From: Pseudomonadota bacterium | GTDB lineage: Bacteria; Chloroflexota; UBA5177 | DNA length: 64,000 nucleotides | Assembly (NCBI GenBank): GCA_021324655.1 | Contig: JAJPIP010000073.1 | Span: forward strand, 1-64,000 | Direction of reading: 5' to 3' | Part shown: one piece after another, positions 25,060 through 28,653 of the stretch | Numbering within the stretch: position 1 is the first letter of the stretch | Layout: each line of letters opens with the position of its first letter | Position numbers and translations under genes: made by a program | The notes under the pieces: model-generated | What the model was told of the DNA's origin: nothing | Database searches by the model: none | The model's input: the letters and a program-made list of their open reading frames with translations, nothing else

Positions 25060-25722
25060 CTACGGCTTCCGAGCGGAGACGGACGTGGCGCGGTCGCGGC
25101 GCAGACCGCCGGCGGCCAGTCTCTTGTAGACAGCGAAAGCGATCAGCGCGACGAGGACAAGCAGCAAAATCACGTTGTAGCGGCTCGCGCCGCTGCTGAC
25201 CTGTTGCCAGTGCTGGCCGAGAGCATTCCCGATCAGCGCCAGGACGGCGCACCACACGACCGACCCGATAGTTCCGTACACCAAGAAGCGCCAGAAGGGC
25301 ATGCGGACGACCCCAGCCGGGAGGGCAATGAAGCTCCGAATCGCGGGCAGCAGGCGGGTGACCAGAACGACCCAATCACCATAGCGCGCGAACCACCGCT
25401 CGGCGCTCAGCAGATCTTCCGGCGAGAGGAAGACCACCCGTCCGTAGTTGTCGAGAATGGGACGCCCGCCGTAGTACCCCAGCGCGTAGGCAATGATCCC
25501 GCCCGTGATCTCGCCGGCAGCGCCGATGGCGACGACGACCGGCAAGATGAACTTATGGCCGCCGGCCGCGGACGAGAGAAAGCCGCTGAAGGGCATGGTG
25601 AGCTCGCTGGGGATCGGGATCCCAAAGCCCTCGATCGTCATGAGGACAAAGACACCGGGATACCCGATGGCGGTGAGGAGATGCTTGATAAGGGTCAGGA
25701 AGTGTGCTTCTAAACCTGTCAT
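25060..25722 (-). CDS. DedA-family membrane protein
   Basis: A 220-residue polytopic inner-membrane protein of the DedA/VTT family. Several members recycle undecaprenyl phosphate or other lipids across the membrane. It has the re-entrant motif EGFGIPIPSELTMPFSGFL near residues 31-49 and the family signature RYGDWVVLVTRLLPAIRSFI near 114-133, with the conserved arginine. Hydrophobic spans occur near the N-terminus, at 60-80 and at 140-205. It is divergent from the csbD gene. The specific lipid is unknown. Confidence 0.9.
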   Translation of the reverse strand: MTGLEAHFLTLIKHLLTAIGYPGVFVLMTIEGFGIPIPSELTMPFSGFLSSAAGGHKFILPVVVAIGAAGEITGGIIAYALGYYGGRPILDNYGRVVFLSPEDLLSAERWFARYGDWVVLVTRLLPAIRSFIALPAGVVRMPFWRFLVYGTIGSVVWCAVLALIGNALGQHWQQVSSGASRYNVILLLVLVALIAFAVYKRLAAGGLRRDRATSVSARKP

Positions 25723-26141: not shown

Positions 26142-27680
26142 GTGCTGACGACGCTGGCACGGCAGCTTCACGTCGCCTTTCCCATCCTGCTCGTTCTCGG
26201 CGGTTTGGTGCTGGGGTTTGTTCCCGGCGTTCCGAGCGTCGCGCTACCACCGAACCTGGTCCTTCTCCTCTTTCTCCCGCCTCTCCTCTTCGTCGAGTCG
26301 CTGAGCCTCTCCTTTCGCGACCTCCTTCATAGCATCCGGACCATCGTGAGCCTGGCCGGTGGTTTGGTCGTGGCCACCATCGGCGCCGTGGCCGTTATCA
26401 TCCACACCCTGGTTCCCGGGTTCTCCTGGGCGACAGCCTTCGTCCTGGGCGCTATCGTCGGGCCAACCGACGAGGTGGCTGCGACGGCGATTGCGGAGCG
26501 TCTCGAGGTGCCGGCGCGCCTGATCGCCGTCATCGAAGACGAGAGTCTGCTCAACGACGCCTTCTCCCTGGTCGCCTATTCGGTGGCGGTGACCGCGGTC
26601 GTGAGCGGGAGGTTCTCCCCGCCCGTCGCCGGCGTCGATGTCATCGTGGCCGCCGTCGGCGGTATTGCAGTTGGACTTGCCGTCGGCTGGGTCGTGGCAC
26701 AGGTGCGACGCCGCCTCAACGACCCGCCGGTGGAACTCACTTTCTCGCTGCTCACGGGGTACGCGGCGTATTTGCCTGCCAACGCGCTCCACTGGTCGGG
26801 CGTGCTCGCGGTGGTGGCCTGCGGCATCTATTTAGCGCGGCGCGGAGCGCCCCACCTCTCGGCCCAGGTACGTCTCCAGTCCCAGGTCATGTGGGAGCTG
26901 GTGACGTTCCTCCTCAACGGCATCCTGTTCATCCTCGTCGGCCTGCAGCTTCACCGCATCTTGAACGCGATCTCAACCTCCCTTCCGGTGTCGCAACTCT
27001 TGCTGTACGCTCTCGTGGTCGTCCTGACCGTCGTCGTGTTGCGCGTTCTCTGGGTTTTCGCCACCGAGTCCGCCTGGTTGCGGCCGGCCCGCCGCGGATC
27101 GCGTTTGTCGGTGAACGAGACAGCTGTCGTCGCCTGGACCGGCATGCGGGGGGCGGTCTCTCTGGCCGCCGCCCTGGCGATTCCGCTGGCCGCCGGCGGT
27201 GGCGGACACTTCCCCGACCGAGAGCTCATCATCTTCCTCACCTATGCCGTCATCCTCTCCACGCTTGCGGTGCAGGGCCTGACATTGCCCGTGTTCATTC
27301 AGTGGCTCGGATTGGCTGCTGATCCCCGCGAGCAGCGGGAGGAAGTCGCCGCACGGCTCGCCGCGCTGCAAGCCGGGCTTGAACGTCTGAACTCGGCATC
27401 GCGGGATGGCGTCCCCGAGGAGATGATCGGCGCTTTACGGGCACGCCTGGAGAACACAGCGCGGCAGGTCGGGATCTTCGCGACCGGCGAACCGACTCGG
27501 GTCCAGCGGGCCGAACAGGCCCGCTATCGGCAGATCGTCCGGGAGGTGATCGACGCGGAGCGCCAGGCAGTCGTGTCGTTGCGCGACGAAGGGATCATCA
27601 GTGATGACGTCATGCGCCGTGTCGCGCGTGAGCTCGATCTCGAACAGGTGCGACTGGAGTCAGTGGGGGTAGAGTCATAG
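26142..27680 (+). CDS. Na+/H+ antiporter (CPA1/NhaP type)
   Basis: A 512-residue antiporter with about 11-12 spans that exchanges Na+ or K+ for H+. Signatures are the TM5 region AFVLGAIVGPTDEVAATAIAE and the following EDESLLNDAFSLVAY with its conserved acidic residues, plus the WTGMRGAVSLAAALAIPL arginine motif. The C-terminal ~120 residues form a soluble helical tail. The GTG at 26142 cuts the first span; the same frame upstream encodes IPNTELILGLLLAVA, which relatives have. The frame reaches a TGA at 26091 without ATG, GTG or TTG. The true start may be AUA at 26097, behind a GGGGTGAG site, or another near-cognate codon. Confidence 0.88.
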   Translation: MLTTLARQLHVAFPILLVLGGLVLGFVPGVPSVALPPNLVLLLFLPPLLFVESLSLSFRDLLHSIRTIVSLAGGLVVATIGAVAVIIHTLVPGFSWATAFVLGAIVGPTDEVAATAIAERLEVPARLIAVIEDESLLNDAFSLVAYSVAVTAVVSGRFSPPVAGVDVIVAAVGGIAVGLAVGWVVAQVRRRLNDPPVELTFSLLTGYAAYLPANALHWSGVLAVVACGIYLARRGAPHLSAQVRLQSQVMWELVTFLLNGILFILVGLQLHRILNAISTSLPVSQLLLYALVVVLTVVVLRVLWVFATESAWLRPARRGSRLSVNETAVVAWTGMRGAVSLAAALAIPLAAGGGGHFPDRELIIFLTYAVILSTLAVQGLTLPVFIQWLGLAADPREQREEVAARLAALQAGLERLNSASRDGVPEEMIGALRARLENTARQVGIFATGEPTRVQRAEQARYRQIVREVIDAERQAVVSLRDEGIISDDVMRRVARELDLEQVRLESVGVES

Positions 27681-27712
27681 CAGCGGAGGCGTGTGCGCGG
27701 AGGACGTGATCA

Positions 27713-28093
27713 ATGCGGCTGTTCGGGCAGAAACCGACAAGGCAAAACGCACTGCCGGGGGTTCCCACTCTCACGGCTCGGGAGCTGAAACACCAGCTGG
27801 ACGAGGGGCGGAAGGTCGTCCTGGTCGACGTGCGGCAGCCGACCGGCTTCGACGTCTATCCGGGAACGATTCCCGGATCCATCCGCATTCCGCCGTCCGA
27901 ATTGCCCGACCAGTACGGCGAGCTGCCACGCGACCAACCGATTGTGCTGTTCTGTACCTGACTTCATGAACAGACGAGCACCCGTGCGGCGCTCTATCTG
28001 CGCAGTAAGGGGTTCCCGCAGGTGTATGCCCTCAAGGGCGGATACGGTGCGTGGATTGCAGCCGGCTACCCTATCCAGGAGACACAGCAATGA
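27713..28093 (+). CDS. Rhodanese-like protein with in-frame TGA, candidate selenoprotein
   Basis: The frame from ATG 27713 encodes a single rhodanese domain: ELKHQLDEGRKVVLVDVRQP, then PGTIPGSIRIP, then IVLFCT at residues 77-82. A TGA follows at codon 83 (27959-27961). The same frame then reads LHEQTSTRAALYLRSKGF and a typical domain end with ALKGGYGAWIAAGYPI, stopping at a TGA that overlaps the ATG of the next gene. Relatives I know carry Cys at this position in a C-x-C-P-x-E-x-T-S loop. If TGA is read as selenocysteine, the protein is 126 residues with Cys81-Thr-Sec83. If not, only 82 residues without the active-site helix are made, which would not fold as a rhodanese. A nonsense mutation or sequencing error is possible. 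Confidence 0.7.
27971..28000 (+). promoter_or_regulatory. Candidate bacterial SECIS element
   Basis: Starting 9 nt after the in-frame TGA, the RNA can fold into a hairpin of three short stems: CAGA with TCTG, GAGC with GCTC, and CC with GG. Small internal loops separate them, and the tetraloop GTGC lies 23-26 nt after the TGA. A G at the first loop position and this distance fit the known loose rules for bacterial SECIS elements. It lies wholly inside the coding frame, as bacterial SECIS elements do. A competing smaller hairpin exists. Confidence 0.5.
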
Positions 28094-28653
28094 CCTTCGA
28101 TTGGGCCACGATCGCCGCGATCGCCTCCACCGCATATGCGGTGGCATTCATCATCAGTATCGGACTGGTGTTACGCCAATTAGGGGAGCAGCGCCGGGAT
28201 CGCTTCGTGACGGCGACCGCGCCAACTTTCCAGCTCTGGGAAGAGGATAACTTCCAGCAGGCGCAGCAGTGGATCCTGTACAGCCTCACGGAAACGACCT
28301 GGAAAGACTTCACCGCCGCACACCGCGGCGACTACGGGGAACGGGCCTTCCTGCGCGTCGGCGCTCTCTACAACCGTATCGGCTATCTCGTCAATTACGG
28401 TTTCCTTGGCAACAACGACCGGATCCTGCTCGATACCCTCGCCGGCCCCGCGATCGCCGTCTGGGAGAAGATCGCCCCTCTTGTCCTGGAAGCTCGTCTC
28501 ATTGAGAACTCCACCCTCTTCCAGGACTTCGAGCGCATGCTGCCGCGCTGCTACGAATGCTTTGTCCCAACGCAGCCGATTCCGGCGTCGGTGCAAGAGG
28601 GCGCCGGCGAGGCGGCACGCCTCCAGGAGGCATCCGCGCGAGAGGGCAGCTGA
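28090..28653 (+). CDS. Membrane-anchored protein of unknown function (DUF4760-like)
   Basis: A 187-residue protein with one N-terminal transmembrane span (WATIAAIASTAYAVAFIISI, residues 5-24) and a cytoplasmic helical domain containing QLGEQRRDRFVTATAPTFQLW and VGALYNRIGYLVNYGFLG. The layout resembles DUF4760-type proteins, a tentative match. The ATG overlaps the read-through stop of the rhodanese gene (ATGA), so its translation appears coupled to full-length rhodanese. The frame is open 13 codons further upstream inside the rhodanese gene. Confidence 0.7.
   Translation: MTFDWATIAAIASTAYAVAFIISIGLVLRQLGEQRRDRFVTATAPTFQLWEEDNFQQAQQWILYSLTETTWKDFTAAHRGDYGERAFLRVGALYNRIGYLVNYGFLGNNDRILLDTLAGPAIAVWEKIAPLVLEARLIENSTLFQDFERMLPRCYECFVPTQPIPASVQEGAGEAARLQEASAREGS

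Follow-up and report, generated by a model that had tools for sequence, protein, structure and literature searches.

A diverged CxU rhodanese gene with an in-frame TGA predicted to encode selenocysteine

In a 64,000-nucleotide stretch of genomic DNA (the window), we found a rhodanese gene whose in-frame TGA, at codon 83, is most probably decoded as selenocysteine (Sec), with a probability of about 0.9. Judged by its sequence, the gene is a new, diverged member of the already catalogued CxU selenoprotein family NF041203. Ordinary annotation would cut it short at residue 82; it would then look broken, although it very probably works and encodes a selenoprotein. A Cys-x-Sec rhodanese had been proposed in an earlier note on this DNA, and that proposal is now supported by the Sec machinery of the genome, by homologues carrying TGA or Cys at the same position, and by a conserved SECIS hairpin. 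The features on which the analysis rests are collected in Table 1.

Table 1. Features of the rhodanese locus, of the Sec machinery, and of relatives in the same phylum
Feature	Location	Strand	Basis or remark
Na+/H+ antiporter gene (CPA1, NhaP type)	26142..27680	+	Pfam Na_H_Exchanger, E=8e-58; TIGR00831, E=6e-113, over cut-off
Likely ribosome binding site GGAGGA	27699..27704	+	5' of ATG at 27713; sequence inspection
Rhodanese gene, predicted to contain Sec	27713..28093	+	126 aa with U83; translation, Pfam Rhodanese, NCBIfam NF041203
Cys81 codon, partner in C-x-U motif	27953..27955	+	Near-invariant in the alignment; TGA in six relatives
In-frame TGA, codon 83, read as Sec	27959..27961	+	Column shared by 58 aligned genes (54 genomes); Cys in homologues from other phyla
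Extended SECIS stem	27971..28000	+	27971-27974/27997-28000 and 27976-27979/27991-27994; minimum-energy fold of 27959-28006
SECIS core hairpin	27978..27992	+	Arms 27978-27982/27988-27992; covariation in the 58-sequence alignment
SECIS loop CGUGC, 5 nt	27983-27987	+	21 nt past the TGA; core stem starts 16 nt past the UGA
Rhodanese gene's own stop, TGA	28091-28093	+	Overlaps next ATG (28090-28092) in an ATGA junction
DUF4760 gene, N-terminal hydrophobic stretch	28090..28653	+	ATG overlaps the rhodanese stop
selB pieces	L001 90-1037 and L008 436-819 (G000:C44 and C28)		N-terminal and C-terminal parts, each at a contig end
selD	L019 1501-2421 (G000:C36)		In-frame TGA, RCAG-U-ASK
Cation/proton antiporter-CxU rhodanese fusions	L057, L060, L065, L067, L068, L079		Same phylum
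UxU genes	L083 1501-1824; L085 495-818; L087 567-863; L089 526-852
UxU genes	L086 513-845; L088 579-896	-

An in-frame TGA within a complete rhodanese domain

The frame comprises 126 codons and a stop, with a single internal TGA, and reads locally ...IVLFCT-TGA-LHEQTSTRAALYL.... Translation confirmed that codon 83 lies two residues past Cys81, giving C81-T82-U83, the C-x-U motif required for NF041203. The observation that the domain reads cleanly on both sides of the TGA was borne out: the read-through product matches Pfam Rhodanese (PF00581) at residues 21-116 (E=1.1e-15; 58.3 bits against a gathering threshold of 22.2), and its predicted fold is that of a rhodanese. Since the match covers this range, the domain spans the TGA, with homology on either side, and the downstream half retains the rhodanese core in the alignment (TSTRAA, GG, AW, GYP). 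The normal composition noted earlier past the TGA also held, with G+C at codon positions 1, 2 and 3 of 0.70, 0.44 and 0.78 before it and 0.65, 0.49 and 0.67 after it, both coding-like. The 42 codons past the TGA would stay open by chance in approximately 46% of cases at this composition and are unremarkable alone; chance as the origin of the open frame is ruled out by the homology and by the conservation of both TGA and hairpin. The frame ends on the ATG of the next gene, as the earlier note had stated. That note gave C-x-C-P-x-E as the motif of the relatives; most relatives have C-x-U-P-x-E, and the window gene itself has Leu after Sec (Sec-Leu-His-Glu).

We considered a change of the genetic code or near-cognate suppression, either of which might place Trp or Cys at the UGA. 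The frame would be open under such codes, but the rhodanese gene's own stop is TGA, and only one TGA occurs across the seven coding frames for which it was counted. Routine use of TGA as a sense codon is thus not seen in the neighbouring genes, and on this ground we rejected a code change. With the position aligning with Cys rather than Trp, and with tRNA-Sec, selA and selB present in the genome, decoding as a standard amino acid is extremely improbable.

The genome encodes selenocysteine machinery

Profile searches of the window's genome (3.8 Mb, 96% complete) recovered selA (488 bits, cut-off 268), selD (378 bits) and tRNA-Sec (75.4 bits, gathering threshold 47) with anticodon UCA. The selB gene came in two parts, an N-terminal one over the cut-off and, on a second contig, a C-terminal one; both lie at contig ends and are probably one gene split by an assembly gap. 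Thus selA, selB, selC and selD, whose absence would have spoken against a selenoprotein, are all present, and from these genes we infer that the genome can make and use Sec. The SelD of this genome is itself a candidate selenoprotein, given its in-frame TGA, which is followed by a 7-bp hairpin with the loop UGCCC, including a G in the loop.

The TGA is conserved among relatives

We searched 400 genomes of the same phylum with NF041203 and read the matches. In 58 genes from 54 genomes, the window's included, TGA occurs at the identical alignment column, in the motif [CU]-[TA]-U. Homologues of Granulicella, Paraburkholderia and Pseudomonas, as well as one gene of the same phylum, have Cys at this site. 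The column thus holds either TGA or Cys, the exchange that a selenoprotein should show, with its direction unrooted. Cys81 is nearly invariant in the alignment in which TGA is read as C. Matching the lists of TGA-gene and tRNA-Sec genomes by eye placed Sec machinery in all 54 genomes: 46 have tRNA-Sec at E<=1e-10, and the other eight have selA. As tRNA-Sec occurs in at least 295 of the 400 genomes, this co-occurrence is a matter of consistency, not proof.

The conservation also bears on a possible sequencing or assembly error, by which the true codon would be TGC or TGT. A single base separates these from TGA, and Cys homologues do exist. However, the same TGA is present in 53 other, separately assembled genomes, along with the co-conserved hairpin, which makes a base error very unlikely. 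Moreover, the window retains this hairpin, whereas it is absent from the Cys homologues of Granulicella and Paraburkholderia, the two for which the following DNA was examined. We regard such an error as scarcely credible.

A conserved SECIS hairpin follows the TGA

The earlier note had assumed that a SECIS element lies just past the UGA, within the coding region, and a conserved hairpin is indeed found there. The 45 nt past the TGA align without gaps across the 58 genes and contain the hairpin, whose consensus is GCGCC-CGUGY-GGYGC, a 5-bp stem around the loop CGUGY. Pairing is kept in 99.3% of the alignment cells, compared with at most 60% in slid-partner controls, and each of the five stem pairs shows compensatory changes, in which both sides are altered and the pair is kept. 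The signal is also visible in codon usage. The hairpin codons (Ser, Ala, Arg, Ala/Val, Ala) have third positions that are 93-98% fixed (C in 56/58, C in 57/58, T in 54/58, G in 57/58 and G in 55/58), whereas third positions outside the hairpin are far freer (e.g., 17/16/13/12). The hairpin Arg is encoded by CGT in 53 of 57 cases, whereas CGT makes up 16% of the remaining Arg codons in these domains and 17% of the Arg codons in the genes neighbouring the rhodanese in the window. Overall, these patterns support selection on the hairpin at the RNA level. Synonymous recoding was less telling: the z-scores of the 58 sequences average -0.96, which is weak compared with the codon fixation and covariation.

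Bacterial SECIS elements are modelled with an apical loop of 3-9 nt, an upper stem of 4-16 bp, a distance of 16-37 nt from the UGA, and a G within the first two loop positions (quoted in PMC13188914). The hairpin agrees with this model in its loop size, its loop G-U, its 21-nt spacing and its covarying stem, with one A.C mismatch in the window. This mismatch, at the third pair (27980/27990), is the sole case among the 58 sequences; when the window's sequence is folded, the loop is closed by two C-G pairs lying above the mismatch, and the stem resumes below. Folded alone, the window's element was not better than shuffles (z of -0.5 to -1.3), with a weak lower stem (z of -0.5); significance comes only from the family alignment.

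The mismatch could be taken as a sign that the TGA is a true stop or that the gene is decaying, such that an 82-residue product would end before the active-site helix and the rest would be a relic. The Leu where relatives mostly have Pro, and the gene's long branch in the tree (0.75), point the same way. Yet loop CGUGC and codon CGT are both kept in the window, the rhodanese core and coding-like composition persist downstream, and the genome has complete Sec machinery; furthermore, decay would leave the conserved TGA in 53 other genomes unexplained. We therefore consider a true stop or a decaying gene very unlikely.

To look for further recoded TGAs, we ran a generic bacterial SECIS scan over the window, which yielded 79 matches, none gene-like by eye; the scan was unspecific and failed to pick up the codon-83 rhodanese gene itself. 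A pattern scan of the genome's contigs returned nothing beyond an ordinary rhodanese, whose active site has a single Cys. The family alignment, by comparison, defines a sharply delimited coding-region SECIS that can be used to find further members.

A diverged branch of a catalogued family

NF041203 is named rhodanese_LYCAU, "rhodanese-related (seleno)protein", in NCBIfam. Its members have been listed as predicted selenoproteins under the names "rhodanese-like form 3, CxU" (PMC13188914) and "COG0607 form 2, CxU" (PMC9312934), a listing of which the earlier note was unaware. The window protein matches the model at positions 19-125 of 126 (E=8.5e-27) and scores 93.3 bits with Cys scored for Sec, missing the cut-off of 115 bits. 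No match in the 400 phylum genomes passes this cut-off, the best one (L055) reaching 114.3 bits when scanned as a protein. Being below the cut-off, like all matches in the 400 genomes, the window protein belongs to a related or diverged branch and is not a strict equivalog by NCBI's rule. It shares with the family the single rhodanese domain over nearly the whole model, the CxU motif and Sec at the same site, and differs in its score, in Sec-Leu-His-Glu and in the A.C mismatch of its SECIS stem; it thereby adds a diverged member without the Pro motif. Our literature search found no function reported for the NF041203 family, which is biochemically unstudied.

L055 is also the nearest relative in the tree, at 50% identity and with the motif CTUPHE, and falls together with the window gene in a starred group of four whose two other genes have no Sec codon. 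By eye, a frame upstream of the rhodanese in L055 (58-1407) resembles a phosphoadenylyl-sulfate reductase (CysH-like), a sulfur-assimilation context.

Single-domain thiosulfate sulfurtransferases of the GlpE/PspE type have one catalytic Cys in a six-residue loop. They resemble the window protein in fold and size (GlpE 1gmx, Foldseek E=4e-6), but are without Sec and without the two-residue loop insertion. Sec within a rhodanese domain is common to selenorhodanese forms 1, 2 and 4 (UxxS, UxxG) and to TsoB (UxxxxU); these, however, have other Sec motifs and belong to other family models, that of TsoB being much longer (572 positions).

Structure and proposed mechanism

The protein is a single-domain and probably cytoplasmic rhodanese, in which UGA 83 is most probably decoded as Sec by SelB and tRNA-Sec, directed by the SECIS hairpin. 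An AlphaFold model, built on a 55-row alignment with Sec as Cys, shows a confident rhodanese fold (pLDDT 90, pTM 0.82) that matches many PDB rhodaneses. Residues 81-86 connect a strand (77-80) to a helix that starts at 87, and the active loop is two residues longer than the usual C-x-x-G-x-R. The catalytic position can accordingly be counted in two ways: from the helix, it is Sec83 (MAFFT; alignment with PDB 3gk5), and from the strand, it is Cys81 (alignment with PDB 5ve3).

We favour Sec83 as the nucleophile and Cys81 as the resolving residue, since it was position 83 that changed to Sec. The roles could be swapped, with Cys81 accepting sulfur and Sec83 being resolving or structural. In the model, Cys81 comes straight after strand 77-80, like the catalytic Cys of ordinary rhodaneses with which one PDB alignment pairs it, and its site is also Sec in six relatives. 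Nevertheless, when measured back from the helix, U-L-H-E-Q-T spans six residues like the usual C-x-x-G-x-R/T loop, MAFFT pairs Sec83 with the catalytic position, and almost every member has its Sec at 83 rather than at 81. Swapped roles are a real, though lesser, possibility.

With Sec83 as the nucleophile, rhodanese and selenoprotein chemistry suggest the following scheme. Sec83 would take sulfane sulfur from a persulfide or thiosulfate (Se-SH), or be oxidised directly. Attack by Cys81 would form a C81-S-Se-U83 selenenylsulfide bond and release sulfide, and thioredoxin or a low-molecular thiol would reset the bond. With this chemistry, to which we assign about even odds, the protein would act as a fast redox enzyme or sensor for persulfides and thiols, and not simply carry sulfur.

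Association with cation/proton antiporters

The Na+/H+ antiporter gene ends 32 bp before the rhodanese ATG, and the two genes are probably in the same operon. If the DUF4760 gene is also part of it, its translation may, speculatively, hinge on UGA read-through via ATGA coupling.

Among the 400 genomes, approximately 20 TGA-bearing NF041203 matches have frames of more than 500 residues. All six of the long relatives that were scanned are antiporter-rhodanese fusions, with the rhodanese C-terminal. Our literature search found no description of an antiporter-rhodanese fusion as a selenoprotein, and neither "antiporter" nor "exchanger" appears anywhere in the 2026 selenoprotein review. The antiporter-fused CxU rhodaneses, as predicted from the assemblies, are a new observation. 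They end in a CxU rhodanese with the same hairpin as the window gene, which is likewise preceded by an antiporter. In the window, however, the genes are separate, and the antiporter is of the NhaP type (TIGR00831), compared with PRK05326-like in the two fusions scanned for this. Similarity between the window antiporter and the fused ones was weak or absent in BLASTP, and the window gene pair is thus not simply a split fusion. As the window antiporter belongs to another subfamily, the link may be coincidence.

Gene position and the fusions of the relatives hint that the rhodanese might serve or regulate the Na+/H+ antiporter, a suggestion that we hold to be rather unlikely. We are similarly doubtful of its wider form, in which the CxU rhodaneses of the phylum would be selenium-dependent redox modules of monovalent cation/proton antiporters, joined to one antiporter subfamily in many species and encoded beside a member of another in the window. 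If this is true, reaction of the Sec with persulfides or oxidants would serve as a gate on ion and pH homeostasis.

Another tie to membrane proteins is seen in the DedA/VTT-rhodanese fusions of Pseudomonas and Paraburkholderia, which have the C-x-[C/U]-P-x-E loop in common with this family. These fusions differ in having Cys (C-x-C-P) and a fused VTT domain, and in Paraburkholderia, where the following DNA was examined, the hairpin block is absent. A DedA/VTT membrane protein gene also lies near the rhodanese in the window (25060-25722, minus strand), VTT being fused to the Cys form in the two genera named.

Relatives with two candidate Sec codons

In six relatives, the Cys81 site is also TGA as read from the assemblies, giving U-[TA]-U with two candidate Sec residues. 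The two TGAs are 6 nt apart, 27 and 21 nt from the loop of a single hairpin, which they apparently share. On the tree, the UxU trait requires at least three changes. Reviews give only CxU for this rhodanese family (PMC9312934, PMC13188914), and the candidate UxU relatives are a new observation alongside it. Together with the antiporter fusions, they suggest where the role of the family should be sought. Two close relatives without the C-x-U motif, L071 (FCEGPPG; genome G208) and L096 (VGEGPPD; genome G104), come from genomes that each also carry a UxU copy (L087 and L088).
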